Assembly (NCBI GenBank): GCA_029265815.1
Contig: JAJUGU010000001.1
Coordinates: 248,001 to 312,000 of the forward strand
Length of the DNA stretch: 64,000 nt
Reading direction: 5' to 3'
Origin: Anaerolineaceae bacterium
GTDB lineage: Bacteria > Chloroflexota > Anaerolineae > Anaerolineales > Anaerolineaceae
Under the pieces are notes generated by a model. The model searched no databases and was not told the DNA's origin. It worked only from the letters and a program-made list of their open reading frames with translations. Every line of letters starts with the position of its first letter. Positions within the stretch are counted from its first letter, which is position 1. A program made the translations under genes and the position numbers. This document shows positions 1 through 16,543 of the stretch, one piece after another.

Positions 1-1275
1 GCCCGTGGTACTGAAGGGCATACTTATCCATGGGGTGAAGACCAACCTACCTGTGATTATCTCAACTTCAAAGATTGTCTTGAACCATCTGAGCCCAATG
101 ACGTCCGCTCTTATAACAATGGCACCAGTCCCTTCGAAGCTATGGATATGTCAGGAAATGTATTTGAGTGGGTCTCAGACTGGTACCAAGAAGATTACTA
201 CCGTCAGTCACCATCATCAAATCCTCAAGGACCCGATCAAGGTACGAAGAAAGTGTACCGTGGCGGCAGTTATAAAACCCCTGAGGATCAAATTCTTCCT
301 TCGTTGAGGTATTCCACAGAGCCAGAGAAATATGCTGCCGACCTCGGATTCAGGTGTGTCCTGATTGGGGATACTGAAGAAATCACTCCTGAACCGCCTC
401 CTTGCCAGGTTGTTGGATTAAATGGGAAACCAGATTCAAACATAACAATTACACCTGCCTCTTGTCCTGATCCGAAAATCTCTGCGTTCTGCGCTCTAGG
501 TCCCAATGGAGCCGCAGTAGCTGGCGTGTATGTGGATGAGACAGAATGCGAATTTGGCAAACTAAGCAATACCAAATTTACCCAGAACGGCTTGCCACTT
601 TACTGTTATTTGCCAGTTGCTGGAAGTTTACGGTGGTTGTGTAACGATCCTTCCTGGGCACAAGGTTTGAAATTGGAGATCGGTTATTGCTATCAATATT
701 ATCCAGTGCAATTAGAGATTACGTGTCCGGCTGGATATCAATACAACACAGTTTCCACTTTTTGCGAACCTGAAGGTTCCTGGTTACCCGATCCACCCTG
801 CCCATATGGCTATGTAGAAGTCGCAGACTTTGGTTGTTTGCCTGATTATTGGGCGAATAATGGATGCCCGGAGGGGTTCTTCACAGTCTATTTTGGTAAT
901 ACCGCCCTATGCGTCCCCTTGGATGAATGCTTGCAACCAGATGCTCCTGAATCTTGCAATCCACCGGCTTGTGCTGAAGGTGAAATCTATGACTCGGCCA
1001 GACAATGCTGTGTTGAGCCAGAAAAACCTCACCAGGTTTGTCCCGTAGGTTGGGAATATTATGAGCCAAAAAATATCTGCCTGAAACCAGATATTTACAC
1101 CGAGCCTTGTAACAGTCAGCGTGTGGCTATCCCATATTGTCCTACGAAAACACCCACCGTAACCCCATCACCAACACCTGTAGATCCGTGCAATCAATAT
1201 ACAGAAGCCCTGATTTGCAATAGATATAAAGACCGTTGCTACTGGACTGGTACTCAATGTCGCTCGATCCCATAA
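1..1275 (+). CDS. SUMF1/FGE-sulfatase-like domain protein with Cys-rich tail (5' truncated)
   Basis: The reading frame is open from the first base, so the N-terminus lies outside the window. The first ~120 residues are the C-terminal part of a SUMF1 (formylglycine-generating-enzyme-like) domain: TYPWGE, MDMSGNVFEWVSDWY, YRGGSY and LGFRC are visible. The two active-site cysteines of true formylglycine-generating enzymes, expected just after RGGS, are absent (the sequence there is YKTPEDQ), so oxidase activity is unlikely. A binding or structural role is more probable, as in many bacterial SUMF1 proteins. After the domain come ~255 residues with 26 cysteines, then a Thr/Pro linker (TKTPTVTPSPTP) and a final four-Cys segment. 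This looks like an exported, disulfide-rich surface protein; export cannot be checked because the N-terminus is missing. Confidence 0.85.
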   Translation, partial: ARGTEGHTYPWGEDQPTCDYLNFKDCLEPSEPNDVRSYNNGTSPFEAMDMSGNVFEWVSDWYQEDYYRQSPSSNPQGPDQGTKKVYRGGSYKTPEDQILPSLRYSTEPEKYAADLGFRCVLIGDTEEITPEPPPCQVVGLNGKPDSNITITPASCPDPKISAFCALGPNGAAVAGVYVDETECEFGKLSNTKFTQNGLPLYCYLPVAGSLRWLCNDPSWAQGLKLEIGYCYQYYPVQLEITCPAGYQYNTVSTFCEPEGSWLPDPPCPYGYVEVADFGCLPDYWANNGCPEGFFTVYFGNTALCVPLDECLQPDAPESCNPPACAEGEIYDSARQCCVEPEKPHQVCPVGWEYYEPKNICLKPDIYTEPCNSQRVAIPYCPTKTPTVTPSPTPVDPCNQYTEALICNRYKDRCYWTGTQCRSIP

Positions 1276-1343
1276 TTCGACGATTAATACCTAAACGGCA
1301 TATGTAGTCACTAGTCATATGACACATCAAAGCTTCATTGATG

Positions 1344-1383
1344 ATCAAAAAGAAACTGCCGATACTGGCAGCTTCTTTTTGAT
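1344..1383. terminator. Bidirectional intrinsic terminator
   Basis: A 17-bp stem with one mismatch (1344-1360 against 1367-1383, loop gatact) is flanked by A-run and T-run arms, so it can terminate either strand. It sits between the SUMF1-domain gene and the convergent hisS. Confidence 0.85.
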
Positions 1384-1411
1384 TTGCAAATCGCAAATAA
1401 TGTGACCCACA

Positions 1412-2689
1412 TTAAGAATTAATCTTTACTATCTGCCGCACAGTCTCCGCTGCCAATTCTTGAGAGCATGTGATCTGTGTATGATCGGTCAGGTTCTTAA
1501 TCGTTACATTGCCAGCCAAAGCTTCATCTGGTCCGATCACCGCTACAGCGATCACTCCGAGTCTATCTGCAAATTTAAATTGCTTTTGTAATTTCACAGC
1601 TTCTGGGTAAAGTATGGTTTTAATGCCCTTTTTTCTAAGCACCGCAGCAAACCCTAATGATTGTTGAAGCGTATTCTCGTCAAATATTGTCACCAGAACC
1701 GTGTCATGAAATGGTTTAATTTCTGGTATACAGCCATATTTTTCCAAAAGAATGGTTGCCATCACATCTCCCATGGCAAACCCCACACCTGGCAACGGGC
1801 TACCACCAACATCGGCCACCAGATTACCATAATGCCCACCGCCTAGTACGGCGCGGCCGTCTTTGCCCATATCCCAGGCTTCGAACACAATACCGGAATA
1901 GTAATCCAATCCACGAATGATATGCGGATCGTATTTGACGTATTCTCTCACCCCCATGATTTCCAATTGATTAAATACTGCGATTAATTCGGGCGATTGT
2001 TGCCATAATTCACGATTATTGAGTATTTCATTAACACCGGTAAATTGGTCATTAGAAAGTCCAATATCGGTGGCAAAAGCTTTCCATGCAGAAAAATCCA
2101 ACTTATCTTTGCGGTCGATCAATTGAAAGGTCTTCTTTTTCAAATCATCCGCGATTCCAAGTTCCAATAGTTTTTTCTCCATCAACTGGCGGTGATTCAC
2201 CAGGATTGAAACCTGTTCTGGGGAAATTCCTGCATTCCTGAAAAAAGTTGCGCAGATTGCCAACAATTCAGCATCCGCAACCGGTGAATCTACTCCGATC
2301 ATATCGATATTCCATTGAAAAAACTCTCTGGTTCGGCCTTTTTGCGGCTTTTCGTATCGCCAGAAAGGGCCAAAGGACCACCATCGAACTGGATAGGTCA
2401 ATTCATTTTGCTTCTGAGCGATCATTCTTGCCAGAGATAGAGTCAATTCTGGTCTTAAAGTTATAAGATCACCGCCCCGGTCTGCAAAAACAAAAGCCTG
2501 TTCTTTTACCAGTTCCTCACCGGATTTTGCAGCGTAAAGATCGATTTTTTCGATAAACGGCCCGTCATATTCTTGATAACCAAACGATTCAGACGTTTTT
2601 TCGATCAACGCATAAAGCCATCTTCTAACAGCCATCTCATGCGGATAAAACTCGCGCGTACCTTTTACAGACTGAATAATATTTTTCAT
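1412..2689 (-). CDS. hisS: Histidine--tRNA ligase
   Basis: Charges tRNA-His with histidine using ATP in the cytoplasm; class II aminoacyl-tRNA synthetase. At 425 aa it has the normal length of a bacterial HisRS. Visible hallmarks are the N-terminal KGTREFYPHE segment, motif 2 around RYEKPQKGRTREFFQWN, the histidine-binding RGLDYYSG, GGHYGNL and the motif 3 region GVGFAMG, followed by the C-terminal anticodon-binding domain. I chose the ATG at 2689 because GAGG lies about 7 bases upstream and the protein then begins MKNIIQSVKG. An ATG 24 bases further up extends the frame without a comparable ribosome site. It is a single-gene unit, convergent with the SUMF1-domain gene. Confidence 0.96.
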   Translation of the reverse strand: MKNIIQSVKGTREFYPHEMAVRRWLYALIEKTSESFGYQEYDGPFIEKIDLYAAKSGEELVKEQAFVFADRGGDLITLRPELTLSLARMIAQKQNELTYPVRWWSFGPFWRYEKPQKGRTREFFQWNIDMIGVDSPVADAELLAICATFFRNAGISPEQVSILVNHRQLMEKKLLELGIADDLKKKTFQLIDRKDKLDFSAWKAFATDIGLSNDQFTGVNEILNNRELWQQSPELIAVFNQLEIMGVREYVKYDPHIIRGLDYYSGIVFEAWDMGKDGRAVLGGGHYGNLVADVGGSPLPGVGFAMGDVMATILLEKYGCIPEIKPFHDTVLVTIFDENTLQQSLGFAAVLRKKGIKTILYPEAVKLQKQFKFADRLGVIAVAVIGPDEALAGNVTIKNLTDHTQITCSQELAAETVRQIVKINS

Positions 2690-2766
2690 GTTTTCCTCTA
2701 TAATGCTGATCAAGATTATTTTAACATAGAGATGAACTTATACAGAAGAATCATTATAAAATGCAC

Positions 2767-2796
2767 TTGCATATATAATTTAAAGTACGGTATGAT
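2767..2796 (+). promoter_or_regulatory. Candidate sigma-70-type promoter for the hydrogenase accessory cassette
   Basis: TTGCAT (2767-2772), an 18-base spacer and TATGAT (2791-2796) lie 54 bases before the first DRTGG gene, in the divergent gap with hisS. The assignment rests on consensus match only. Confidence 0.35.
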
Positions 2797-2850
2797 TAGC
2801 GATGTTGTAAAGTCATTATTTCATTATTTCAGAGAAGATAGGCTTATAAA

Positions 2851-3231
2851 ATGAATGTAAAAGAATTGATCCAACTGATCGACGGCCGATTATTAACATC
2901 TTCATCGGATCTTTCAAAAGAAGTAAAAGGGGGCTGTGGTGCAGATTTAATGAGCGATGTACTTGCATCGATTCAGCCTGAAGCCGTTCTTCTCACAGGC
3001 TTATGCAATCCTCAAGTTGTGCGCACATCGGTTATGGCTGATGTAGCAGCAATTATCCTTGTTAGAGGCAAAAACCCTCCTCCCGAGACCATTTCACTTG
3101 CAGAGGAAGAACATGTTCCTCTGATTTCGTCTCCATTCGGCATGTTCGAATTGTGTGGAAGGCTATATGGAGCGGGTCTTAAGAGTCTTGAGCGACCAGT
3201 TGATGGCAGTGACTGTGATTGTGCCAGTTAA
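2851..3231 (+). CDS. DRTGG-domain protein (hydrogenase-associated), copy 1
   Basis: A 126-aa protein of the small DRTGG-like family. The segment GGCGADLMSDVLA matches the SDLLS-VMA core of the family, and it aligns along its length with the second copy at 4244. The molecular function of the family is unknown; related domains occur next to CBS domains and in phosphotransacetylase, so ligand sensing is plausible. It has a Cys-rich end (DCDCAS) that copy 2 lacks. It is the first gene of a same-strand run reaching the hydrogenase; the CBS-HATPase gene begins 11 bases after its stop. The upstream ribosome site is weak (AGG about 10 bases before ATG). The same set of genes is known near [FeFe]-hydrogenase loci of clostridia. 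Confidence 0.8.
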   Translation: MNVKELIQLIDGRLLTSSSDLSKEVKGGCGADLMSDVLASIQPEAVLLTGLCNPQVVRTSVMADVAAIILVRGKNPPPETISLAEEEHVPLISSPFGMFELCGRLYGAGLKSLERPVDGSDCDCAS

Positions 3232-3241
3232 GGAGTAACTG

Positions 3242-4222
3242 ATGAGCCAGGATTCACTCTTTCACGGGAAAATCATTAGTGAACAAAAAGCTGAAAATAT
3301 TTCCCGTGTAGAAGAGCTGGCTTATGACCTGAAAGTTGATCAGGTAATGACCCGTGATCCAGCAACGGTCACTCCGCAAACCCCAATGAACGTGGTGCTA
3401 GAACTGTTTCGCACGAAAAGGATCTCAGGTGCACCGGTAATTGAGAACAACGAACTGGTGGGATTGGTTAGCATTGAAGATTTGATCCGTTGTCTGCAAA
3501 ATTCAGATATGCAGGCTGAAACACAAAAATATATGAGCACAAAGCTGCTCACTGTTCGAAATACGGATTATGTAATTGAAGCACTTAAGATGTTTGTCAA
3601 TTCCCATTATGGAAGACTGCCAGTTGTTGATAATAACGGAAAACTGACGGGCATTATTACAAAAGGGGATATTACAAGCGGTATTCTAAAAGCACTTCAA
3701 TATGAATACCATGAAGAAGAAGTAAGACGTTATCGCGCAAGTCATCTGTTTGAAGATATTGAGTCTGATCGTTCCAGTCTAATCCTTCGCTATAACATCA
3801 AACAGGGAGATTTCATGCACGGTGGAGCGGCTTCCTCAGCCATCAAACGTGCATTGATCCGTTTGGGTGCGAACCCCCAGATTGCTCGTCGTACCGGATT
3901 GGCGGTGTATGAGGCAGAAATGAATTTAGTCATTCACACCACCAATGGTGGAATTATTCGGGTGGAGATTGAGCCCAGACAAATATCGATTACGGTTTCA
4001 GATGACGGCCCAGGCATTGAGGATATTAATCTGGCCATGCGGCCTGGTTACTCCACTGCGTCTGAAGTTGTTCGTGAGCTCGGATTTGGGGCAGGAATGG
4101 GGCTGGTAAATATTCAACGATGTGTGGATTCCATGCGGCTTGAATCCATATATGGACGGGGAACCAATCTAAGATTAAAAATATTCCTTCCCGAAGAGGA
4201 ACCAGTCGGAGAAGGTAATTAA
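3242..4222 (+). CDS. CBS-pair / HATPase (anti-sigma-factor-like) protein
   Basis: A 326-aa protein with two CBS repeats (about residues 30-90, VDQVMTRDPATVTP, and 95-155, KLLTVRNTDYVIEAL) followed by a GHKL ATPase domain (about 190-315). The ATPase boxes are visible: the N box in YEAEMNLVIH, the G1 box DDGPGIED and the G2 box GFGAGMGLVNI. No histidine phospho-acceptor domain and no transmembrane segment is visible, so it resembles an RsbT/RsbW-type serine kinase or anti-sigma factor rather than a sensor kinase. CBS pairs usually bind adenine nucleotides, so energy or redox-cofactor sensing is a reasonable inference. GGAG precedes the ATG. It lies between the two DRTGG genes. Confidence 0.87.
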   Translation: MSQDSLFHGKIISEQKAENISRVEELAYDLKVDQVMTRDPATVTPQTPMNVVLELFRTKRISGAPVIENNELVGLVSIEDLIRCLQNSDMQAETQKYMSTKLLTVRNTDYVIEALKMFVNSHYGRLPVVDNNGKLTGIITKGDITSGILKALQYEYHEEEVRRYRASHLFEDIESDRSSLILRYNIKQGDFMHGGAASSAIKRALIRLGANPQIARRTGLAVYEAEMNLVIHTTNGGIIRVEIEPRQISITVSDDGPGIEDINLAMRPGYSTASEVVRELGFGAGMGLVNIQRCVDSMRLESIYGRGTNLRLKIFLPEEEPVGEGN

Positions 4223-4243
4223 TCTCAACAGGAGAATGGTGCA

Positions 4244-4597
4244 ATGAATCTTCAAGAGATCGTTGATACATTAGAACTGACTTCTTACACCACACCAAAA
4301 GACTATAAAGATATTATTCCTTCCAGCGGCTATTCTTCTGATTTGTTAAGTTGTGTAATGGCCGGTGCTGAAAAAAGATCTCTCTGGGTGACACTTCAAT
4401 CGCATGGAAATATTATCGCCGTGGCCTCTCTGCTGGATCTGGCCGCAGTCATCATCACCGAAGGTGCCGTACCGGATCCTTTGATGGTAGAAAAAGCGAA
4501 TGAAGAAAATGTTATTCTTCTGGGTACATCTAAGCCCACTTTTTATATCATAGGCAAACTTTGGGAAATGGGTCTACGTAACAAGCAAGAAGCCTGA
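4244..4597 (+). CDS. DRTGG-domain protein (hydrogenase-associated), copy 2
   Basis: A 117-aa paralogue of the protein at 2851. The core here is GYSSDLLSCVMAGA, then LWVTLQSHGN and LDLAAVIITEG, which is the canonical form of this small DRTGG family. It lacks the Cys-rich C-terminus of copy 1. AGGAG precedes the ATG by about 10 bases. Two different DRTGG proteins flanking a CBS-ATPase suggest a heteromeric sensing complex; this is inference from gene order. No enzymatic motif is visible. Confidence 0.8.
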   Translation: MNLQEIVDTLELTSYTTPKDYKDIIPSSGYSSDLLSCVMAGAEKRSLWVTLQSHGNIIAVASLLDLAAVIITEGAVPDPLMVEKANEENVILLGTSKPTFYIIGKLWEMGLRNKQEA

Positions 4598-4615
4598 CCC
4601 TATTGACTTATCAAA

Positions 4616-5356
4616 TTGAAAACTTTTCGGTCAGATCTACACGTTCATACCGTTCTATCCCCTTGTGCGGAAGTTGAAATGATTCCACCGCTCATAGTTG
4701 AATGTGCTTTAGATCTGGGAATTACTCTGATTGCCATTACAGATCACAACTCGAGCGCAAACATAAAAGCTGTACAAAAAGCAGCTCAAGGCACTCCCTT
4801 GGTTGTTTTACCGGGAATGGAAGTTCAAACCAGGGAAGATGTACATTCGTTATGCATTTTTGATACTTTGAATCAAATCGAACAATTTCAGAAAATTGTT
4901 GATGCCACTCTACCTAAAATTAAGAATCGAGCTGAACATTTTGGAGCACAGTTCGTCGTTGATGAAACTGGCGAATTTATCTATGAAGAAGAACAATTGC
5001 TCATAACATCATCTTCACTTTCAATAAATGAAGCCTGGCGAATTGTCACAGACCTGAAAGGCTTATTTATTCCAGCACATATCGATCGAAAATCTTTCGG
5101 GTTGATTGAGTCTCTTGGATTTATACCTGCAGACATCCCCTTTAAAGCCGTTGAAATATCACGTCATATCACACCTGAACAGGCCCATCTGTCCATTCCA
5201 AGCATCGGGCATATTCCTATCATCCAAAATGGTGACGCCCATCGTTTGAACGAATTACTTGGAACACTCTATATTGAAGTTGAAAATGTGTCTGTTTCGG
5301 AAATAATATTATCTTTATCTCATAAATACGGCAGGAATTTTAATCTTATTGCGTAA
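4616..5356 (+). CDS. PHP-domain metal-dependent phosphoesterase-like protein
   Basis: A 246-aa protein with the PHP (polymerase and histidinol phosphatase) fold. Metal-ligand motifs are SDLHVHT (His9, His11), ITDHNS, PGMEVQT, PAHIDR and NGDAHR, in family order, so the active site appears complete. The substrate is unknown. The only usable start before the conserved SDLHVHT is TTG at 4616: an in-frame TGA lies 12 bases upstream and no Shine-Dalgarno sequence is visible. Translation therefore probably depends on coupling with the DRTGG gene that ends 18 bases earlier. It closes the accessory cassette; a 173-base control region follows before nuoE. Confidence 0.85.
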   Translation: MKTFRSDLHVHTVLSPCAEVEMIPPLIVECALDLGITLIAITDHNSSANIKAVQKAAQGTPLVVLPGMEVQTREDVHSLCIFDTLNQIEQFQKIVDATLPKIKNRAEHFGAQFVVDETGEFIYEEEQLLITSSSLSINEAWRIVTDLKGLFIPAHIDRKSFGLIESLGFIPADIPFKAVEISRHITPEQAHLSIPSIGHIPIIQNGDAHRLNELLGTLYIEVENVSVSEIILSLSHKYGRNFNLIA

Positions 5357-5444
5357 TATTGGCATAATATATTGTAAAATCATGCTATATCGTCAGTGTA
5401 AGAATTTGACAATTAACTTTTTGACTTATGACATTTGTAATTTG

Positions 5445-5477
5445 ATGTACACTTATCATAAAATGTACACTTATCAT
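5445..5477 (+). repeat. Two direct repeats with 18-bp period upstream of nuoE
   Basis: The 15-base sequence atgtacacttatcat occurs at 5445-5459 and again, identically, at 5463-5477. An 18-base period puts the copies on roughly the same face of the helix with two-turn spacing. It lies 53-85 bases before the nuoE start and is probably a tandem operator. Confidence 0.6.
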
Positions 5478-5478
5478 G

Positions 5479-5500
5479 GTAAAAAATCGGCATTTTTTAC
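5479..5500. promoter_or_regulatory. Perfect palindrome in the nuoE leader
   Basis: Arms gtaaaaaat (5479-5487) and attttttac (5492-5500) surround the loop cggc. It directly follows the direct repeats and ends 29 bases before the nuoE ATG. It could be an operator or a weak leader hairpin; no T-run typical of a terminator follows. Confidence 0.5.
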
Positions 5501-5529
5501 AAATGCCTAAATTTATTCTGGAGAGATGA

Positions 5530-6054
5530 ATGGCAGCAACTACAACTGTACCAAAAACGTACCCCAAGAACGAGCCGCTCGGTGATGCTGGTAAAAAAGC
5601 TGTAATTGATACCATCATTGAGCAATACAAAGACCTGCCTGGAGCTACCATGGTGGTCCTAAATGAACTGCAATCAGCAATTGGTTTTGTAAGTACGTAT
5701 ATGCAGGAATATGTCGCAGAAAGACTGCAAGTCCCCCTCTCTCGAGTTCATGGTGTTGTGTCGTTCTATTCTTTCTTTACAACCACACCACGTGGCAAAC
5801 ATACTGTCAAGTTTTGCATGGGTACTGCCTGTTATGTCGGTGGTACACCTTCGCTAATTGAAAAAACAAAACAGATTCTGGGTGTTTCTCCAGGCCAAAC
5901 GACCAGTGATGGAAATATTACCTTTGAAGTATGCCGCTGCGTTGGCGCATGTTCGCAGGCACCAGTTGTTGTGGTTGACGAAGAAGTGCATGGCAGAGTT
6001 CGACCAAATAAAATACCGCAACTCCTAAAGCCAATGTTGGATGAGAAAGAGTAA
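5530..6054 (+). CDS. nuoE: NuoE-type [2Fe-2S] thioredoxin-fold subunit, copy 1 (HydC-like)
   Basis: A 174-aa electron-transfer subunit of the NuoE/HoxE/HydC family. The [2Fe-2S] ligands are the pair in CMGTAC (Cys-x4-Cys) and the pair in CVGAC (Cys-x3-Cys), spaced as in NuoE. In related complexes it docks on NuoF and passes electrons to or from the flavin site. GGAGAG precedes the ATG at 5530; an ATG four bases earlier is out of frame. It is the first gene after the control region, followed within 3 bases by the HATPase gene. The N-terminal ~25 residues are less conserved in appearance. A second, divergent NuoE is encoded at 8894. Confidence 0.92.
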   Translation: MAATTTVPKTYPKNEPLGDAGKKAVIDTIIEQYKDLPGATMVVLNELQSAIGFVSTYMQEYVAERLQVPLSRVHGVVSFYSFFTTTPRGKHTVKFCMGTACYVGGTPSLIEKTKQILGVSPGQTTSDGNITFEVCRCVGACSQAPVVVVDEEVHGRVRPNKIPQLLKPMLDEKE

Positions 6055-6057
6055 GAC

Positions 6058-6630
6058 TTGAAAGAACTTTCCCTGCATTTACTGGATATTGCTGAAAACA
6101 GTATTGCGGCCGAAGCAAAATGTATCAAGATTGTAGTAAATGAAGATAGTAGATCTGATCTTTTACAAATGATAGTCGAAGATGATGGCCGGGGAATGAA
6201 CCCTGAAATGGTGGAAAAAGTGATTGACCCATTCACCACCACCCGTACCACACGCAAAGTAGGACTCGGTATTCCACTACTCAAAGCCGCTGCAGAAGCC
6301 TGCAATGGATTTCTTACAATCGATTCACAGCAAGGCAAAGGTACGAAGATTTTTGTGCAATTTCAACGCAGCCACATCGATAGAATGCCATTGGGAGATT
6401 TGGTAACAACAATTATGAACCTGTTAGTGGCTAACCTACAGATTCATTGGATCTTTCAATACAAATACAACGACAAAGTTTTCATTTTTGATGATCACCC
6501 CATTAAGACTGAGCTTGAAAACGTGCCGTTGTCGGAACCTGGCATTCTAAATTGCATCAGAGAAATGCTTAAATCCGGAATTTTGGAAATCAATCCGGAC
6601 TTTTTAACGGACCAAGTGTCCATATCATAA
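6058..6630 (+). CDS. Hydrogenase-associated HATPase (GHKL) protein
   Basis: A 190-aa protein with a GHKL ATPase domain over about residues 1-105. Visible motifs are the N box LLDIAENSIAAEAK, the G1 box EDDGRGMNPE, the lid segment DPFTTTRTTRKVGLGIPL and a closing GKGTKIFVQF. About 80 C-terminal residues form an unrecognised domain. There is no phospho-acceptor domain. Proteins of this type sit between NuoE and the 2Fe-2S protein in [FeFe]-hydrogenase operons of other anaerobes; their role is not established. The start is TTG, 3 bases after the nuoE stop, with GAAAGAG inside the nuoE end as the only possible ribosome site. Confidence 0.85.
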   Translation: MKELSLHLLDIAENSIAAEAKCIKIVVNEDSRSDLLQMIVEDDGRGMNPEMVEKVIDPFTTTRTTRKVGLGIPLLKAAAEACNGFLTIDSQQGKGTKIFVQFQRSHIDRMPLGDLVTTIMNLLVANLQIHWIFQYKYNDKVFIFDDHPIKTELENVPLSEPGILNCIREMLKSGILEINPDFLTDQVSIS

Positions 6631-6652
6631 CAGGGTTTGCAGGAGAAAAAGA

Positions 6653-7021
6653 ATGTCAACGATTAAGAGTTTGGATGATTTGAAACGTGCCAAAGAAGAA
6701 GCATTAAAGAAACGAGAATTAAAAGCCACCTCAGGGGCTGCCCAGGTAATCGTCGGCATGGGAACTTGTGGAATTGCCGCTGGTGCTCGTGACACAATGA
6801 AAGCTATTCTCGAAACAATCGAGCAGGATTCAATCACCGGTGTCATTGTGACACAAACTGGTTGTATTGGATTATGTGAACGAGAACCTATTGTTCAGGT
6901 CATCATTGGCGAACAACCAAAAGTTACTTATGGCAAAGTTACACCAGAAGTAGCCCGTAAGATCATGAAAGAACATGTTAAAGCAGGAAAAATTGTTTCC
7001 AACAATGTAATTAATCTCTAG
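6653..7021 (+). CDS. (2Fe-2S) ferredoxin-domain protein, thioredoxin fold
   Basis: A 122-aa soluble iron-sulfur protein resembling the isolated N-terminal domain of HydB/NuoF. Cysteines are found in MGTCGIAAGA and TGCIGLCEREP; three are visible, which as I recall is usual for this small family. It is predicted to carry a [2Fe-2S] cluster and to shuttle electrons to the adjacent NuoF. GGAG lies 8 bases before the ATG. Its place between the HATPase gene and NuoF is the order seen in clostridial bifurcating-hydrogenase loci. Confidence 0.85.
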   Translation: MSTIKSLDDLKRAKEEALKKRELKATSGAAQVIVGMGTCGIAAGARDTMKAILETIEQDSITGVIVTQTGCIGLCEREPIVQVIIGEQPKVTYGKVTPEVARKIMKEHVKAGKIVSNNVINL

Positions 7022-7055
7022 CTCTTTAAATCACACTTATAAAAAGGTTGTGCTA

Positions 7056-8837
7056 ATGAAGTATTATCGCTCGCACGTTTTAGTTTGTGTCGATCCAGAG
7101 TGTCTTAAAAAAGGTGCCCATGATGTTATGGATGCCTTCCAGGATGAGTTAGTCGCCCAGGGATTGATTGATGAAGTTCAGGTTCTTGAAACATCCCGCA
7201 TTGGTGGATGCGACCACGGCCCTGAATTAATGGTCTATCCAGAAGGTGTTCATTACACCAACCTCACTCCGGATGATATGCCTTTTCTTGTCGAAGAACA
7301 TTTTCTTAAGGGGCGTATTGCTCAGAAATTCGTTGCTGAAGAAAAAGCATTCACCGATGAAGAGCTCAGCGCTCCAACTGCTAAAGAAATCCGAGTTGTC
7401 CTTCGGAACTGTGGCAAAATCGATCCAGAAAACATTGAAGACTATATAGCAGAAGATGGATACCAGGCGCTGGGAAAGGTATTAACAGAAAATACCCCTG
7501 AACAAGTCATTGAAACTGTGCTTAATTCAGGGCTTAAAGGACGTGGGGGTGCTGGTTTCCCGACAGGCAAGAAATGGGAATTTTGCCGTGCTAGTAAAGA
7601 GACCCCTAAGTATGTGATCTGCAACGCAGATGAAGGAGATCCTGGTGCATTCATGAATCGCCGAGTATTGGAAGGCGATCCACATTCGGTTATCGAAGGC
7701 ATGATCATCGCTGCGTACGCGATTGGTTCCAACCAGGGTTATGTATACTGCCGAGCTGAATATCCTATCGCTGTAAAGACGCTGCGCATCGCAATTAATC
7801 AAGCGCGCAGTATGGGATTGTTGGGTAAAAACATTCTCGGTAGCGGGTTTGATTTTGACCTTGAGGTTCGTATGGGGGCCGGTGCATTCGTATGCGGTGA
7901 AGAAACTGCCTTGATGGCCTCCATTGAGGGGAATCGCGGTGAACCTCGTCCGCGTCCTCCATTCCCTGCCGTAAAAGGTTTGTTTGCCAAGCCATCCAAC
8001 ATCAACAATGTTGAAACTTACGCAAATATTCCCCAGATCATTCTCCGCGGTGCGGATTGGTACGCAAGCATGGGAACAGAAAAATCAAAAGGAACGAAAA
8101 CCTTTGCTCTTGCAGGTGATGTCAAACATACAGGTTTGATTGAAATTCCTTTTGGTCTCACGCTGCGTGAGATCGTCTATGACGTTGGTGGTGGCATTAA
8201 GGACGATAAGAAATTTAAAGCCGTTCAAACTGGTGGCCCGATGGGTGGTTGTCTTCCTGAGGCATATCTCGACTTGCCGGTTGATTATGAAGCGATTACC
8301 AAAGCAGGGTCTATTATGGGCTCTGGTGGTTTAGTGATCATGGATGAAGATACCTGCATGGTCGATATCGCCCGCTTTTTCATGGATTTTACTCAGGATG
8401 AATCATGCGGTAAATGCACCCCTTGCCGTGTTGGTACACGACGAATCCTTGAGATCCTTGAAAGAATTTGTGCAGGTAAAGGAAAACCAGATGATATTGA
8501 AACGCTGGAATACCTTTGTGCCCAAATTCGAGAAGATAGTCTATGCGGCTTAGGTCAGGGATCCCCTAACCCCGTCGTTACCACATTAAAGCATTTCAGA
8601 GATGAATATGAAGCACATATCTTTGAAAAACGTTGCCCCGCAAAGGTTTGTAAGGCGTTGATCCGCTACGAAATCATTGATGGCATATGTACAGGCTGTA
8701 CGGTATGTGCTCGTAACTGTCCGGTAGGGGCGATCAGCGGCGAACGCCGTCAGACTCATGTGATCGATCCAGATATCTGTGTCCGCTGCGGTATTTGCAA
8801 GCAGGTTTGTAACTTTAACGCGATTGTCATTAACTAA
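7056..8837 (+). CDS. nuoF: NuoF-type flavin/NAD(H) subunit with C-terminal 2[4Fe-4S] domain, copy 1 (HydB-like)
   Basis: A 593-aa diaphorase subunit. Domain order: an N-terminal thioredoxin-like [2Fe-2S] domain (Cys11, Cys16, Cys52; the fourth expected Cys is Arg48); the FMN/NADH core with RGRGGAGFPTGKKWEF, CNADEGDPGAF and the Gly-rich GAGAFVCGEETAL; a [4Fe-4S] site ESCGKCTPCR with a distal Cys in DSLCGLGQG; and a C-terminal ferredoxin domain with two CxxCxxCxxxC motifs (CTGCTVCARNC, CVRCGICKQVC). The added N- and C-terminal cluster domains are characteristic of the HydB subunit of electron-bifurcating hydrogenases. ATG 7056 is preferred over GTG 7050 because AAAAAGG is correctly spaced only for the ATG. 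Confidence 0.94.
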   Translation: MKYYRSHVLVCVDPECLKKGAHDVMDAFQDELVAQGLIDEVQVLETSRIGGCDHGPELMVYPEGVHYTNLTPDDMPFLVEEHFLKGRIAQKFVAEEKAFTDEELSAPTAKEIRVVLRNCGKIDPENIEDYIAEDGYQALGKVLTENTPEQVIETVLNSGLKGRGGAGFPTGKKWEFCRASKETPKYVICNADEGDPGAFMNRRVLEGDPHSVIEGMIIAAYAIGSNQGYVYCRAEYPIAVKTLRIAINQARSMGLLGKNILGSGFDFDLEVRMGAGAFVCGEETALMASIEGNRGEPRPRPPFPAVKGLFAKPSNINNVETYANIPQIILRGADWYASMGTEKSKGTKTFALAGDVKHTGLIEIPFGLTLREIVYDVGGGIKDDKKFKAVQTGGPMGGCLPEAYLDLPVDYEAITKAGSIMGSGGLVIMDEDTCMVDIARFFMDFTQDESCGKCTPCRVGTRRILEILERICAGKGKPDDIETLEYLCAQIREDSLCGLGQGSPNPVVTTLKHFRDEYEAHIFEKRCPAKVCKALIRYEIIDGICTGCTVCARNCPVGAISGERRQTHVIDPDICVRCGICKQVCNFNAIVIN

Positions 8838-8893
8838 TCTATAAACTGTCAGTAATCTAACCCATCATAGACAGAAACATAGGAGGTTTTGCA

Positions 8894-9373
8894 ATGGCAG
8901 GTAATGGAAAAGATGGCAAAGTGGTGGCCAACGTAGTCAAAGCAGCAGTTGACCGTTACGGAGCCTCTCAAGACGAGTTGATACCGATTTTGAACGAAGT
9001 AAATCGCGAGATCGGGTATTTACCCGGTGAAGCACTGAATGAGATAAGTCGTCTTTTACGGGTTCCAAAAAGTCATCTGTTTTCTGTTGCCAGCTTTTAT
9101 CGGATGCTCTCGACAAAGCCACGCGGCAAGCATGTGATCCAGTTTTGTGAAAGTGCCCCTTGTCATGTAGCTGGTGGACGTGAAGTCTGGATAGCGGTCA
9201 AGGAGTATCTTAATATCGATGAGGATCAGACTACTCCTGATGGAAAATGGACGCTTCTTACTACCAGTTGTCTCGGAGTATGTGGTGTCGGTCCGGTGAT
9301 GGTCATTGATGATGACATCTATGGCAATGTTGAACCTTCGCAGGTTCCTTCGATTCTTGAAAAATATCATTAA
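8894..9373 (+). CDS. nuoE: NuoE-type [2Fe-2S] subunit, copy 2
   Basis: A 159-aa NuoE/HoxE-family subunit with ligands in CESAPC (Cys-x4-Cys) and CLGVC (Cys-x3-Cys). It shares the fold and the sequence SFYRMLSTKPRGKH with copy 1 (SFYSFFTTTPRGKH) but is clearly divergent, so this is an old duplication or separate acquisition rather than a recent copy. AGGAGG is ideally placed before the ATG. The second NuoF begins 13 bases after its stop, so the two probably form their own NADH-oxidising module. Confidence 0.92.
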   Translation: MAGNGKDGKVVANVVKAAVDRYGASQDELIPILNEVNREIGYLPGEALNEISRLLRVPKSHLFSVASFYRMLSTKPRGKHVIQFCESAPCHVAGGREVWIAVKEYLNIDEDQTTPDGKWTLLTTSCLGVCGVGPVMVIDDDIYGNVEPSQVPSILEKYH

Positions 9374-9386
9374 ACAGGAGACAATA

Positions 9387-11021
9387 ATGAAAGCCTTTCG
9401 CTCAATGGTTCTAGTCTCCAGCGATCCAACAAGTATCGAACGTGGAGCTAAAGATGTATTTCAGGCTCTCCAGGCTGAAATTTCAGCTTTTGGGTTGGAA
9501 AATGAAATTTCATTGACGATGGTTGGTGATGTTGGACGGCATGATGCAGCACCACTGGTAATCGTATACCCAGAAGCTGTGATTTATGGACCAGTAAAGA
9601 AAGAAGACGTGCATTATCTGGTCGAAGAACACCTGTATAAGGGCAGGATTGCCTCATCGTTTCAGGCTCCGGTGAAAGAACTTTCCGGAAAGATTGCGTG
9701 GCTTTCTTCTCGCAAGGGCACCTTACCTGCCGAGCAGCGTATCGTCCTTGAACGAGCTGGAGTCATTGATCCCAATTCTATTGATGATTACATTATCCAT
9801 GATGGGTATCAGGCTCTGGCAAAAGCGGTTACAGAAATGACACCTGAAGAAATCTACACAACCCTTGAAAAATCAGGGTTACGTGGACGTGGCGGTGCAG
9901 GATTTCCAACCGGAACCAAATGGAAATTTGTGCACAAAGCTCAGGGCGACAAGAAATTTGTCATTTGCAATGCAGATGAAAGTGAACCAGGTACTTTTAA
10001 AGATAGACTGATTCTCGAGGGAGACCCGCACTCAATCATTGAAGCACTGGCGATCGCTGCTTATACCGTAGGGGCAGATGAAGGTTACCTCTATATCCGC
10101 GGCGAATATAGCATTGCACAGGAAAGAGTAATGATTGCCATCGCTCAGGCCAAAGAAATGGGATTCCTCGGTAAGAATATCTTTGGAACCAAGTTCAACT
10201 TTGATCTGCACGTACATAGCGGAGCTGGAGCTTATATCTGTGGCGAAGAGACAGCCCTTATTGAATCCATTGAGGGCAAACGTGGTGAACCGCGGGCTCG
10301 CCCGCCTTATCCAACCACACATGGGCTCTGGGGAAAACCTACCCTGGTAAACAATGTCGAAACACTCGCTAATGTTGCACCGATCATCCGTAATGGACCA
10401 GATTGGTACCGAAGTTTCGGCCCTGCTTCCAGCCCTGGCACTAAAGTCTACACAATCCTCGGTAATGTCAACATGACGGGTTTGATCGAAGTACCGATGG
10501 GTATCACATTGCGTGAAGTGATAGCAATTTACGGTAAAGGAATGAAGAACGGTAAAACATTTAAACTCGCTCAAACAGGCGGTTCTTCCGGTTCAATCAT
10601 ACCGGCAAGCCTGCAAGACACGCCGATGGATTTCGATTCCTTTGCAAAAGCCGGTGTTGCACTTGGATCAGGTGCACTTCTGATCTGCGATGAAGATACT
10701 TGCGTTGTCGATCTAACAAAAGTGCTATTGAACTTTTTCCGCAAAGAATCTTGCGGAAAATGCAATCCCTGTCGTATTGGTAATCAACGCGCGTATGAAA
10801 TATTAACGAATATCTCAGAAGGAACTGGCAAGATCAAAGACCTCGACGACTTAATGGTCTTAAGTGACAACCTCTACCAGCTGTCAAATTGCGGATTGGG
10901 ACAGACTGCCGGCGCGCCAATTCGGGATATCTTAAATTACTTCAGAGCAGAAGTTGAAGCCCATATCAGATTGAAAGTATGCCCAACGGGAATCTGCCCG
11001 ATGAGCGGAAAACGAATTTAG
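9387..11021 (+). CDS. nuoF: NuoF-type flavin/NAD(H) subunit, copy 2 (HoxF-like, no C-terminal ferredoxin domain)
   Basis: A 544-aa diaphorase subunit. The FMN/NADH core is intact (RGRGGAGFPTGTKWKF, CNADESEPGTFKDR, GAGAYICGEETAL) and so is the [4Fe-4S] site (ESCGKCNPCR, distal Cys in LSNCGLGQ). The N-terminal thioredoxin-like domain is retained but has no cluster cysteines: the positions equivalent to Cys11, Cys16 and Cys52 of copy 1 are Ser, Thr and His. The protein ends just after the core, lacking the two [4Fe-4S] clusters of copy 1. The start at 9387 has CAGGAG seven bases upstream; the frame extends 81 bases further into nuoE without support. Confidence 0.93.
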   Translation: MKAFRSMVLVSSDPTSIERGAKDVFQALQAEISAFGLENEISLTMVGDVGRHDAAPLVIVYPEAVIYGPVKKEDVHYLVEEHLYKGRIASSFQAPVKELSGKIAWLSSRKGTLPAEQRIVLERAGVIDPNSIDDYIIHDGYQALAKAVTEMTPEEIYTTLEKSGLRGRGGAGFPTGTKWKFVHKAQGDKKFVICNADESEPGTFKDRLILEGDPHSIIEALAIAAYTVGADEGYLYIRGEYSIAQERVMIAIAQAKEMGFLGKNIFGTKFNFDLHVHSGAGAYICGEETALIESIEGKRGEPRARPPYPTTHGLWGKPTLVNNVETLANVAPIIRNGPDWYRSFGPASSPGTKVYTILGNVNMTGLIEVPMGITLREVIAIYGKGMKNGKTFKLAQTGGSSGSIIPASLQDTPMDFDSFAKAGVALGSGALLICDEDTCVVDLTKVLLNFFRKESCGKCNPCRIGNQRAYEILTNISEGTGKIKDLDDLMVLSDNLYQLSNCGLGQTAGAPIRDILNYFRAEVEAHIRLKVCPTGICPMSGKRI

Positions 11022-11046
11022 ACTTTTTACTAGGAGAGATTCGATA

Positions 11047-12999
11047 ATGGTCACACTGACTATCGATGGAAAAAAGATTGAAGTTCCTGAAGGTACTACC
11101 GTTTTACGCGCTGCTCAAAGCGCTGGGGTCGATATTCCTACCCTTTGCGATCATCCACACCTGACACCATATGGGGGCTGCCGTCTATGTTTGGTGGAAG
11201 TTGAAGGCGCGCGTACACTGCAACCCTCATGTACAATGCCAGTCAGCAATAATATGGTTGTCAAAACCAATACGAAAAAAGTATTGGATGCTCGCAAATT
11301 CGTTCTTACCTTAATTTTCAGTGAACGCAACCATTTTTGTCCTTATTGCCAGGTAAGCGGCGGAGATTGTGAACTCCAGAACGCAGCCTATCACGAAGGA
11401 ATGACCCACTGGCCTTTGCAGCCAAACTGGCAACCTTATCCAGTTGATGCCTCACATCCATATATTATTCTTGAAAACAATCGTTGTATCCTTTGCCGGC
11501 GCTGTGTCCGTGCATGCGGTGAATTGATTGGAAACTTTACACTAGGTTTTGAGGAACGTGGTGCCAAAAGTATACTGGTAGCAGATACTGGCATTCCTTT
11601 GGGCGAAAGCACATGCGTTTCCTGTGGCGCGTGCGTCCAGGTCTGCCCAACCGGAGCTCTCATTGACCGCTGGAGTGCCTATCGCGGACATGATGTAGCA
11701 CTTGACAGTACCCAAACCATTTGTGTCGGTTGTTCTGTGGGTTGTGGAATCAAAGTGTTTACACGTGACAATAACCTTGTCAGAATTGATGGCGATTGGG
11801 ATGCCTCAATCAATGGAGGTGTTTTGTGTGAAATTGGTCATTTCGAACCCATGACAGAGAAATGCGATCGAATTCACACCCCCATGGTGCGGAAGAATGG
11901 ATCATTGAAAGCAGCAACCTGGGAAGAAGCTCTCACAGCCGCTTCTGAAGGTCTTCAATCTCTCAAGGGGAAACCAAGATCAAGTATTGCAGCGTTAATT
12001 TCCACCCGTCAACCAGTCGAAACGATCCATAATTTTAAACAACTCTTTGAGAATCACCTTGGTGCGGCACTGGTTACTTCCACAGAAGAGGGTTACTACA
12101 CATCATTTTCATCCCTTGCAGCAGAATCCACAGGAAAACCCTTTGAAGGAAAACTATCAGATATCCATAACAGTGATAGTGTGATGGTGTTTGAGGCTGA
12201 TCCTCTCAAAGATCATCAAGTTGCAGGCTTCTTTATCAAACGTAAATTGCCATCAGGATTAAAATTGCTTGTCATTGACAAATCGGAAAATGCTCTTGAC
12301 AAAGCTGCCAACAAAGCGCTTAAGCCTGGTAAGTGTACCTATGAGGATGTTTTTAAGGCTTTAACTGCTGCCGTGGTTAAACTAGGATTGGCAAAAGGGA
12401 AGACAGCAATCAAAGCAGATGAACTTCACTCTCTTGCCGAAAAGACCGGCCTAACGACTGATGATTATCTAGATACAGCATACGTAATTGCCGCCGCTGA
12501 ACGACCAGTAATTGTCTATGAAAGCACTGAAAACATAGCTTCTCTAAAAGAATTTGCAGCTTTGGTTGGTGCAAAACTTGTGGGTCTTAAGGGTGGTGCC
12601 AACAGCCTTGCCGCAGCCCAATTAAACCTTGATAAATCATACAAATCTGATGGGTTCAAGGCTGCATTTATAGCTCTTGGTGATGATGAACTTTCCCAAA
12701 AGATGGTCAAAGAATTGGAAAGTATCCCCTTTAAGATAGTCCAGGCTAGCTATGCTTCATCAGCCACAGCCATGGCAGATGTCGTCTTCCCCTCTACGAC
12801 CTGGCTGGAGCAGGGTGGCCATTATGTCAACCTCGAAGGTACTGTTCAAGAAGCCTTCCAATCAATCAAACCTGCCGAAGAAATAAAGACCATTGGCGAC
12901 ACTCTTATTGCCCTTTCCACCAAGTTAGGAATCAACCTCGACGGTGATTGGACAAAAGAATTGTACAGACGTATTTCGCCCGTTGAAATTGCACGTTGA
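11047..12999 (+). CDS. NuoG/HoxU-like iron-sulfur subunit with degenerate molybdopterin-oxidoreductase domain
   Basis: A 650-aa electron-transfer subunit. Order: plant-type [2Fe-2S] (Cys34, Cys45, Cys48, Cys62); a His-ligated [4Fe-4S] site (His96, Cys98, Cys101, Cys108; Cys101 and Cys108 are six residues apart, one more than usual); a double [4Fe-4S] ferredoxin region (CILCRRCVRAC, CVSCGACVQVC); a further four-Cys [4Fe-4S] site (CVGCSVGC plus LCEIG); then ~370 residues of a molybdopterin-oxidoreductase fold without obvious cofactor ligands. It would carry electrons between the NuoEF modules and the hydrogenase small subunit. It is longer than HoxU (~240 aa) and resembles NuoG or the HydA-type linker subunit of bifurcating [NiFe] enzymes. 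TAGGAGAG precedes the ATG. Confidence 0.9.
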   Translation: MVTLTIDGKKIEVPEGTTVLRAAQSAGVDIPTLCDHPHLTPYGGCRLCLVEVEGARTLQPSCTMPVSNNMVVKTNTKKVLDARKFVLTLIFSERNHFCPYCQVSGGDCELQNAAYHEGMTHWPLQPNWQPYPVDASHPYIILENNRCILCRRCVRACGELIGNFTLGFEERGAKSILVADTGIPLGESTCVSCGACVQVCPTGALIDRWSAYRGHDVALDSTQTICVGCSVGCGIKVFTRDNNLVRIDGDWDASINGGVLCEIGHFEPMTEKCDRIHTPMVRKNGSLKAATWEEALTAASEGLQSLKGKPRSSIAALISTRQPVETIHNFKQLFENHLGAALVTSTEEGYYTSFSSLAAESTGKPFEGKLSDIHNSDSVMVFEADPLKDHQVAGFFIKRKLPSGLKLLVIDKSENALDKAANKALKPGKCTYEDVFKALTAAVVKLGLAKGKTAIKADELHSLAEKTGLTTDDYLDTAYVIAAAERPVIVYESTENIASLKEFAALVGAKLVGLKGGANSLAAAQLNLDKSYKSDGFKAAFIALGDDELSQKMVKELESIPFKIVQASYASSATAMADVVFPSTTWLEQGGHYVNLEGTVQEAFQSIKPAEEIKTIGDTLIALSTKLGINLDGDWTKELYRRISPVEIAR

Positions 13000-13034
13000 T
13001 TATCAGTAAAATTGTAGAAAGATAAGGAGAGATC

Positions 13035-13577
13035 ATGGCAAAACCTAAAGTCTCAACAGATTGGATGGCCGGATGCGCAGGGTGTCACATGTCCTTATTG
13101 GACATGGATGAACGTATCGCAAAGATTGCAGAACTTGTGGATTTACGTTCCACTCCAATTACCGACTTAAAAGTTCCTGATGAATCTGGTGTAGATGTTG
13201 GTGTTCTTGAAGGTGGTATCAACAATACCTCTAACGAAGAAGTAGCGCATCGGATGCGTTCTCGCTGTAAGATTCTGGTAGCTTTGGGTGATTGCGCAGT
13301 TTTTGGTGGAGTTCCTGCTATGCGCAACTTTTTTACGATCGAGGAATCACTACGGCGGGCATATATCGAATCAGAAAGCACCGACGCCAGCGGAAAAATT
13401 CCAAGTGACCCTGAATTGTGTAAACCTACCAGGGTACGTGCTTTACATGAGGTTGTACCAGTAGATGTGTTTGTTCCGGGCTGCCCCCCAAGTGCTGATA
13501 CGATTTTTTATGTGTTAAGTGAACTTGCCCAGGGACGAATTCCCGACGTTAAAGACGATAAACTTTCCTGGTATTAA
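13035..13577 (+). CDS. hoxY: [NiFe] hydrogenase small subunit (group 3, HoxY/HydS-like)
   Basis: A 180-aa cytoplasmic small subunit carrying the proximal [4Fe-4S] cluster. Ligand cysteines are Cys14 and Cys17 (GCAGCH), the Cys in ALGDCAVFGG and the Cys in PGCPPS. There is no twin-arginine signal and no extra C-terminal cluster domain, which distinguishes it from membrane uptake enzymes and fits group 3. It pairs with the large subunit 16 bases downstream. A well-spaced GGAGAG precedes the ATG. Confidence 0.94.
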   Translation: MAKPKVSTDWMAGCAGCHMSLLDMDERIAKIAELVDLRSTPITDLKVPDESGVDVGVLEGGINNTSNEEVAHRMRSRCKILVALGDCAVFGGVPAMRNFFTIEESLRRAYIESESTDASGKIPSDPELCKPTRVRALHEVVPVDVFVPGCPPSADTIFYVLSELAQGRIPDVKDDKLSWY

Positions 13578-13593
13578 TATTAGGAGGATCTGA

Positions 13594-15021: not shown

Positions 15022-15042
15022 GACATAAGAATCAATGATAAT

Positions 15043-15081
15043 GTAAAGCGATGGCAGGTCGTAAACTTGTCATCGCTTTAC
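15043..15081 (+). promoter_or_regulatory. Stem-loop between the hydrogenase large subunit and its endopeptidase gene
   Basis: A perfect 11-bp stem, gtaaagcgatg (15043-15053) with catcgctttac (15071-15081), encloses a 17-base loop. No T-run follows, so it is more likely an mRNA-stabilising or processing hairpin than a full terminator. The endopeptidase ATG is 18 bases downstream of the stem. Confidence 0.6.
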
Positions 15082-15099
15082 TGCGAATAGGAGGATCGA

Positions 15100-15582
15100 A
15101 TGCGAACACTGGTGTTAGGCTATGGAAACCGTGATCGGCAAGATGATGGAGTCGCCTGGCATTTATTGGCTGAAATTAGAAAACGTTTGGGGTTCAAGGA
15201 ACCTTACTTGATCGATGAATCATTTGAATCACAAGATTCTTTGATTTTTGTTTTCCAACTTCAATTAATGCCAGAAATAGCGGAAGAAATCTCTCCATTT
15301 GACCGAATCTGCTTTTTAGATGCCCATACGGGTTCTATCCCTGAAGAAATCCATTGCGAGAATTTATCTGCCGTTTATCAACATTCTCCTCTCACCCACC
15401 ACCTGACAGCGAGTTCTTTGCTTTCTATCCTCCAAACCATTTATCATAAAACACCAGAGGCAATATTAGTATCAGTTCGGGGAAAAGAATTTGGATACTC
15501 TCCTGACCTTTCTTCTGAAACAGCGAAACTAATTCCACAGGCAGCGCAAATCGTAATTGATTGGATTTCTAAAGAGAAATAG
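15100..15582 (+). CDS. hoxW: Hydrogenase maturation endopeptidase (HoxW/HyaD family)
   Basis: A 160-aa protease that clips the C-terminal tail of the hydrogenase large subunit after nickel insertion. The family signature is present as LGYGNRDRQDDGVA, with Asp16 as the expected nickel ligand, plus the FLDAH segment and a later His (LTHHLTA), which complete the usual Asp/Asp/His metal site. The length is normal for the family. AGGAGG precedes the ATG. Its position after the large subunit gene indicates that as its substrate. Confidence 0.92.
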   Translation: MRTLVLGYGNRDRQDDGVAWHLLAEIRKRLGFKEPYLIDESFESQDSLIFVFQLQLMPEIAEEISPFDRICFLDAHTGSIPEEIHCENLSAVYQHSPLTHHLTASSLLSILQTIYHKTPEAILVSVRGKEFGYSPDLSSETAKLIPQAAQIVIDWISKEK

Positions 15583-15605
15583 AATTAAAAGAGCGGGGGT
15601 TAATT

Positions 15606-16451: not shown

Positions 16452-16543
16452 TTGTGACACTAAGCAATGAGACAAGGATGTAAAACACTAATCGGATTTA
16501 GATACTCAATGTTATCCTAGAACATAAAGCTGCAGGAAATGCC

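Follow-up and report, generated by a model that had tools for sequence, protein, structure and literature searches.

We analysed a 64,000-nucleotide stretch of DNA (the window) from an Anaerolineaceae bacterium (assembly GCA_029265815.1, contig JAJUGU010000001.1, positions 248,001-312,000, forward strand) and found that a cassette of five accessory genes, which heads a [NiFe] hydrogenase operon, follows the NuoF-type bifurcating core (BfuB) and not the catalytic partner in the relatives examined. Its SpoIIAB-like HATPase belongs to a family with an exchangeable input, which is either a fused CBS pair or a partner of the [FeFe] hydrogenase type (HydS). The gene set is probably an interchangeable control switch.

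The cassette and its link to the bifurcating core

All five open reading frames (ORFs) lie on the plus strand between positions 2851 and 6630, where ORFs and Pfam matches bear out the original prediction of a DRTGG / CBS-HATPase / DRTGG / PHP / second HATPase set. They encode DRTGG1 (2851-3231; Pfam DRTGG 34.2 bits, cut-off 25.2), a CBS-HATPase (3242-4222; Pfam CBS 105.1 bits in two stretches, HATPase_c 40.4, HATPase_c_2 37.5), the diverged DRTGG-type protein DRTGG2 (4244-4597), a PHP-family metal phosphoesterase with a TTG start (4616-5356; Pfam PHP 28.6 bits, cut-off 26.4) and HAT2 (6058-6630), a GHKL ATPase with a small C-terminal domain and also a TTG start (HATPase_c 58.0 bits, cut-off 26.4). 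NuoE1/BfuC, the thioredoxin-like [2Fe-2S] subunit of the bifurcating core (5530-6054; 2Fe-2S_thioredx 154.5 bits), stands between PHP and HAT2, and the successive gaps measure 10, 21, 18, 173 and 3 bases. DRTGG2, 24% identical to DRTGG1 in the alignment, stays below the DRTGG cut-off (19.4 bits) and passes Hpr_kinase_N alone (25.2 bits, cut-off 24). Beyond that prediction, a [2Fe-2S] protein (6653-7021) travels with the cassette, and a second NuoE/NuoF pair (8894-11021) is part of the operon.

A scan for the CBS-HATPase in relatives gave 80 loci, mostly from Anaerolineae and many of them cut by contig ends (L numbers denote relatives' loci or fetched stretches). The full set of DRTGG, CBS-HATPase, DRTGG, PHP, NuoE, HAT2, [2Fe-2S] protein and NuoF is present in 64 of the 80, in 59 of them in that order, and the cassette is therefore not a chance arrangement; several of the other 16 loci are short contigs. 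A DRTGG gene lies within 1.5 kb of 90 of the 91 CBS-HATPases with enough flank. The sole CBS-HATPase without an adjoining DRTGG (L255:9529-10572) is found beside a radical SAM/B12-binding protein.

BfuB and CBS-HATPase profiles were run independently on the same 251 Chloroflexota genomes. A CBS-HATPase at E 1e-40 or better was found in 13 of them, and BfuB lay within 3.5 kb in 12; in the thirteenth (L132), BfuB was not seen on the fetched stretch. Many Chloroflexota genomes hold BfuB without the cassette, and 19 such loci, hand-picked from a longer BfuB list, all lacked the cassette, HAT2 and the [2Fe-2S] protein. Of 91 BfuB loci, 68 have all three, 19 have none of them and 4 are mixed. The 68 are partly a product of selection because the 72 cassette loci were found via the cassette, which does not apply to the 19. 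HAT2 and the [2Fe-2S] protein accompany the cassette in 68 of these 72 loci. An alternative count of 100 BfuB rows (700 bits or more) gave 76 all present, 19 all absent and 5 mixed, differing because NuoF2 paralogues were counted too.

The cassette had been proposed to serve the bifurcating NuoEF part and not H-cluster assembly. In agreement with this, it is not confined to [FeFe] enzymes: [NiFe], molybdopterin, complex I and Rnf partners are found next to it as well. Formate dehydrogenase-type molybdopterin proteins follow in L021, L058 and L043 (Pfam), NuoA-D lie within the cassette in L081 (Pfam; NuoD also in L078), and Rnf-type membrane subunits lie upstream in L077. On a BfuB tree without near-copies and rows of unknown partner (68 rows including NuoF2), the cassette requires 4 changes (shuffled mean 16.7), compared with 14 for the [NiFe] label (19.3) and 15 for the molybdopterin label (17.6), which stands for the fold and includes NuoG of complex I; the [FeFe] label, with only 7 rows, requires 5 (6.8). 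When eight low-scoring rows, mainly NuoF2, were removed, the remaining 60 gave 4 changes for the cassette (15.6), 11 for [NiFe] (15.9), 13 for molybdopterin (15.6) and 5 for [FeFe] (6.7). Lineage contributes to the 4 changes of the cassette, because its rows are mostly Anaerolineae and 13 of the 19 cassette-free rows come from other classes. In the 29 cassette-bearing rows of first loci, the [NiFe] label shows no more clustering than after shuffling (10 changes versus 9.5).

The source genome points the same way: its [NiFe] operon has the cassette, while the NuoE-BfuB-HydA operon that encodes its sole [FeFe] (Fe_hyd_lg_C) protein, a catalytic HydA, is cassette-free and lies on another contig (L131, G000:C21). 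This HydABC operon and the BfuB tree rule out the cassette as a mark of [FeFe] enzymes. A four-CBS protein (290 aa) is encoded about 2.6 kb upstream of NuoE in L131.

Kinase-like ATPases with an exchangeable input

The CBS-HATPase comprises a CBS pair (residues ~30-150), a long helix and a SpoIIAB-like GHKL ATPase (~180-315). E224, N228, D254, G256, G258 and the G2 glycines are invariant in an alignment of 30 rows, and simple pattern counts recover E-x3-N, DxGxG and the G2 glycines in 160 of 160 HATPases. The Glu that precedes the Asn by four residues serves as general base in Ser/Thr-type GHKL kinases. Pattern counts gave D-x3-N in 107, DxGxG in 110 and GLG in 105 of 110 HAT2 relatives and, for 123 PHP relatives, HxH in 123, DHN in 122, the C-terminal DxH in 123 and the middle E...H in 113; a Ser is invariant in the DRTGG alignment. 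By these patterns the kinase and phosphoesterase motifs are intact. The PHP protein is a candidate phosphatase, and DRTGG1 is a probable partner of the kinase-like ATPase.

AlphaFold2 modelled HAT2 with a predicted local distance difference test score (pLDDT) of 90.2 and the CBS-HATPase with a pLDDT of 81.6 and a predicted template modelling score of 0.45, because of which the relative placing of its two domains is unsure. Using Foldseek, HAT2 was matched to histidine-kinase CA domains and MutL N-termini, and the CBS-HATPase to CBS pairs, AcuB and SpoIIAB (1til). The regulatory part of CBS-pyrophosphatase consists of CBS and DRTGG. The window likewise combines a CBS pair with DRTGG (weak PRK14869 matches), but on separate proteins and with the CBS pair joined to an ATPase. 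AcuB, an Ap4A-dependent adaptor (PMC13039410), shares the nucleotide-binding CBS fold, and the nearest folds of the CBS pair include AcuB with AMP, ADP and Ap4A.

On the HATPase part, spIIAB was the best-scoring model, with 54.9 bits far below its cut-off of 135. The CBS-HATPase thus has the GHKL fold, E-x3-N box, G1 and G2 of SpoIIAB/RsbW and does not reach the cut-off of that family model. No DHp/H-box or receiver match (Pfam) was obtained for the CBS-HATPase, HAT2 or the other cassette proteins. The original prediction had raised control by partner switching; however, STAS, SpoIIE and sigma models matched none of the operon proteins identified, and the one STAS match (on another contig) and three SpoIIE matches of the source genome all lie away from the operon. 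Since no STAS or SpoIIE gene is near the cassette, classical partner switching is unsupported.

Records of Parabacteroides and Subdoligranulum (labelled as plasmids) carry a related HATPase without CBS, followed by an [FeFe]-type protein. In Parabacteroides (L151) this protein has two Fer4 domains, Fe_hyd_lg_C and a C-terminal FeS domain and no PAS (Pfam), and the proton-relay cysteine is missing from the aligned sequences of both L151 and L152. Group D/M2e HydS have the same make-up, with two N-terminal [4Fe-4S] clusters, an H-domain and a C-terminal FeS domain, without PAS and without the proton-relay cysteine (PMC8163306, PMC13104023). Judged by domains and residues, the L151 and L152 proteins are group D HydS. 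This corrects the statement that the set is known beside [FeFe] hydrogenases: in these two records, both with [FeFe] enzymes, the version differs, having no CBS and a HydS that follows. The CBS version itself is also found beside an [FeFe] enzyme, in L259.

The order DRTGG, HATPase, DRTGG, PHP, HAT2 recurs in the HydS-type loci L151, L300, L301, L303 and L306. Two HydS queries gave nothing above 28 bits in the 80 CBS loci, and no HydS stands beside the HATPase in the source genome, whose one Fe_hyd_lg_C protein is the catalytic HydA. Profile searches covered 247 genomes each from the phylum of a Spirochaetales genome and from that of a Desulfomonilaceae genome. In the former, none of 43 full CBS-HATPases had HydS within 1 kb, compared with 10 of 24 HATPases without a CBS match; in the latter, the figures were 0 of 10 for CBS-HATPases and 25 of 55 for the rest (Fisher p 8e-6 and 0.01, respectively, with related genomes treated as independent though they are not). 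These counts are lower bounds, since scoring was limited to the top 8 and 6 candidates of each genome, and one of the 24 CBS-less HATPases (G458) was wrongly sorted, a CBS being present in its 443-aa ORF. The HATPase is directly upstream of HydS in all 35 pairs, which account for 35 of the 40 HydS across the two phyla. One HydS search left out 20 of 31 matches (123-156 bits, ORFs of 574-745 aa), which were taken for other [FeFe] groups and none of which has a listed HATPase nearby on its contig; one HATPase search left out 9 of 74 matches that covered the CBS part only. Together with the Chloroflexota, the two phyla made up the systematic sampling.

On a HATPase tree of 71 rows (without L075 and CBS rows more than 80% alike) the four input labels need 5 changes versus a shuffled mean of 20.1, and exchanges of input thus look few. 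HydS versions adjoin molybdopterin Bfu operons (L297, L300, L306) and a [NiFe] Bfu operon (L299), and the CBS version adjoins the [FeFe] enzyme of L259, so the catalytic metal does not determine the type of sensor. Single ORFs join DRTGG to HATPase (L295), HATPase to HydS (L224), HydS to DRTGG (L299, L302, L304) and HATPase to DRTGG (L232-L236, L241). These fusions and the proximity of DRTGG genes argue that the parts of the cassette touch each other.

Other arrangements of the HATPase were seen as well. In L232-L235 the HATPase-DRTGG fusion and a DRTGG gene lie directly downstream of a gene with a weak CBS match, which in L232 is an MgtE-type Mg2+ transporter with CBS domains. HATPase-HydS pairs directly follow ABC-transporter genes in L222 (ABC) and L223 (CbiQ-type and ABC), with DRTGG out of reach, and L072:1-1751 holds tandem HATPases, one with CBS and one without.

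A putative control switch and its alternatives

Gene content, co-occurrence, input exclusivity, fusions and intact catalytic motifs lead us to a reading that we hold to be about evenly balanced between right and wrong: the cassette would be a sensor-kinase/phosphoesterase module that adjusts the bifurcating enzyme after translation. Its core would be the SpoIIAB-like GHKL ATPase, probably a protein kinase of the Ser/Thr type with a putative activity and substrate, in complex with one or two DRTGG proteins. This kinase would be set by an exchangeable input, namely the fused CBS pair in the window and a separate group D [FeFe] HydS in other lineages; as putative ligands, the CBS pair most likely reads adenine nucleotides (AMP/ADP/ATP or Ap4A) and HydS most likely H2. 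The signal would pass to the NuoE/NuoF (BfuCB) core, the putative target, by way of the products of the two genes found between nuoE and nuoF, HAT2 and the [2Fe-2S] protein. The PHP phosphoesterase, in a putative phosphatase role, would remove the mark. In this way, H2 pressure or energy charge could slow or release the enzyme regardless of its kind of catalytic site.

Taken more broadly, flavin-based electron bifurcation may have a dedicated control in which a kinase-DRTGG-phosphoesterase core with swappable H2/adenylate sensors throttles BfuCB whatever the catalytic module, a generalization that we put forward tentatively and at somewhat less than an even chance. If true, this control core would also supply group D HydS with its missing signal path; how these proteins pass on their signal is described as an open question (PMC8163306). 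HydS and CBS as alternatives on one kinase family provide HydS with a named candidate signalling partner. The question bears on how bifurcating enzymes avoid wasting reduced ferredoxin, and it leads to paired predictions, H2 for the HydS version and a nucleotide for the CBS version, on small soluble proteins.

Several observations weigh against a control module of BfuCB. The enzyme of Acetomicrobium mobile was purified with its five subunits only (PMC8880783), so that any contact of its accessory proteins with the enzyme is not tight. Nineteen of the 91 BfuB loci lack the cassette, HAT2 and the [2Fe-2S] protein; these are therefore not essential to bifurcation generally, and the cassette is ruled out as a mark of every BfuB. 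Neither CBS nor HydS is nearby for 28 of 157 HATPases, so sensor input is not obligatory and an obligatory choice between the two is ruled out, and 5 of the 40 HydS have no HATPase match beside them. In L132 (13691-18581) and L280 the cassette is found beside a [NiFe] enzyme without a BfuB piece; by gene sizes and one Fer4_22 match, these [NiFe] genes resemble group 3b. The original prediction had named a position far from NuoF in most genomes as evidence against the link. This is not what the CBS version shows, with BfuB within 3.5 kb in 12 of the 13 Chloroflexota genomes and in reach of 53 of the 63 HATPases flanked on both sides by 8 kb or more (lacking for 10). The other versions come closer to it: BfuB was reached for 8 of 17 HydS-type HATPases and 10 of 20 with neither input, and was lacking for 9 and 10. 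On all fetched stretches, including short ones, no BfuB was found for 31 of 107 CBS, 12 of 22 HydS and 17 of 28 'neither' HATPases (these counts, those with 8 kb flanks and that of the 157 HATPases leave out L072 and L075).

Alternatively, the cassette could encode assembly factors, in which case the GHKL proteins would act as ATP-driven chaperones for inserting FMN or Fe-S clusters into NuoE/NuoF or for assembling the two, the [2Fe-2S] protein would donate clusters, and DRTGG and PHP would assist. The fold of HAT2, which resembles MutL-type GHKL proteins as well as kinase CA domains, would suit such a role, as would the place of HAT2 and the [2Fe-2S] protein between nuoE and nuoF and their presence in 68 of the 72 cassette loci, and Feng 2022 left 'maturation and/or regulation' open (PMC8880783). 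However, the 19 BfuB loci manage without any of these genes, and it would be left unexplained why the ATPase carries a CBS pair or a sensory HydS; we consider assembly unlikely. Quite improbable, in our estimate, is transcriptional control, in which the CBS-HATPase would be an anti-sigma-type factor or feed a regulator of operon expression. The top rank of spIIAB among the models matching the HATPase part (54.9 bits) is in its favour, but this score falls far short of the cut-off, the operon proteins scanned gave no sigma, STAS, receiver or DNA-binding match, and the genome's sole STAS match is on another contig.

The module might also serve general redox or energy-charge signalling with many targets and merely be often encoded beside bifurcating enzymes. 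Minimal DRTGG-HATPase(-HydS) units that stand alone in Spirochaetota and Desulfobacterota stretches, the HATPase-DRTGG fusions beside an MgtE-type gene and the cassettes of L132 and L280 would fit this view, but it conflicts with the all-or-none linkage to HAT2 and the [2Fe-2S] protein inside nuoE-nuoF and with the clustering of the cassette on the BfuB tree, and we regard it as distinctly improbable.

The operon enzyme and related systems

Behind HAT2 the operon continues on the plus strand with the thioredoxin-like [2Fe-2S] protein (6653-7021; Pfam 22.3 bits, cut-off 24.8; fdxn_Clost 43.6 bits, cut-off 150) and NuoF1/BfuB with a C-terminal 2x[4Fe-4S] part (7050-8837), whose best PDB match is 7t2r_B, subunit B of the A. 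mobile NiFe hydrogenase (854.7 bits, residues 4-592). The second pair comprises NuoE2 (8894-9373; Pfam 158.1 bits) and NuoF2 (9369-11021, the true start lying inside), a BfuB paralogue without the C-terminal ferredoxin domain (7t2r_B 612.6 bits, ending at 538 of 597). These are followed by NuoG/BfuA without an H-cluster match (11047-12999; best PDB match 7t2r_A, 313.7 bits, residues 2-398), the [NiFe] hydrogenase small subunit, which is distinct from sensory HydS (13035-13577; VhuG 122.9 bits, below the cut-off of 450), the large subunit (13594-15021; best PDB match 7t2r_D, 577.3 bits, residues 5-475) and a hydrogenase maturation protease (15100-15582; TIGR00072 50.6 bits, cut-off 47.45). We take HAT2 to be probably the counterpart of the A. 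mobile 'HisK' and the [2Fe-2S] protein to be possibly HydD.

BfuB shows the domains of Bfu enzymes (N-terminal thioredoxin-like, FMN and C-terminal 2x[4Fe-4S]), and a BfuA without H-cluster occurs together with [NiFe] small and large subunits, as in NiFe-HydABCSL. By homology, the operon enzyme is a [NiFe] hydrogenase of the NiFe-HydABCSL type known from Acetomicrobium and would thus bifurcate electrons between NADH and ferredoxin. It is the same type of enzyme as in A. mobile, with BfuB, BfuA and the large subunit matching 7t2r chains best, but unlike the latter the window operon has the second NuoE/NuoF pair. HydD, HydP and HisK, which are encoded in the A. mobile operon as well, are assumed to act in maturation and/or regulation (Feng 2022, PMC8880783); the available text of that paper does not name DRTGG or CBS-HATPase genes for this operon.

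The BfuABC family likewise combines varied catalytic partners with one BfuBC core (Schut 2022, PMC9304861); a figure legend there places hisK and hydD outside the holoenzyme, and the available parts do not describe the cassette. Group D sensory HydS were reported beside bifurcating [FeFe] hydrogenases (TamHydS, Land 2020, PMC8163306; Thermoanaerobacter survey, PMC3608648), and both papers already contain the neighbourhood of HydS and a histidine kinase. In the related loci, HydS directly follows a HATPase of the same family as that of the window; DRTGG is present there, and often PHP and HAT2 too. The window differs from these systems in the CBS pair on its HATPase and in the absence of HydS from the 80 CBS loci and the source genome, and from SpoIIAB/RsbW, with which it shares GHKL fold and E-x3-N box, in an operon without STAS, SpoIIE or sigma match. 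A HATPase domain also occurs inside group C1 [FeFe] hydrogenases (PMC11406978). The available portions of PMC11837493, PMC4374699, PMC10407848, PMC6349859 and PMC10055695 do not mention the cassette, and no published account of its CBS version was found in the literature searched, which largely excludes subscription journals.

No RNA element reached the gathering threshold in positions 1-16500 of the window. A scan of 2600-7100 gave 16 promoter-like sites versus 10.9 expected and 8 terminator-like sites versus 3.3 expected, among the latter a stem at 5489-5507 in the PHP-NuoE gap. The ORF at 15606-16451 is presumably a formate/nitrite transporter, and a gene of this type (Pfam) lies between NuoF2 and the NuoG/molybdopterin-type gene in L022. 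The second NuoE/NuoF pair is present in many Anaerolineae loci; it stands upstream of NuoE1 in L057, L063, L068 and L070 and is missing in L027, L049, L060, L065 and L066. In L050 (13809-16940), BfuB is fused to a GltD-like FAD/NAD(P) oxidoreductase domain (Pfam, L050 only) in one ORF of the ~1010-1140 aa class, and ORFs of similar length occur in L041, L224, L240 and several Desulfobacterota loci.

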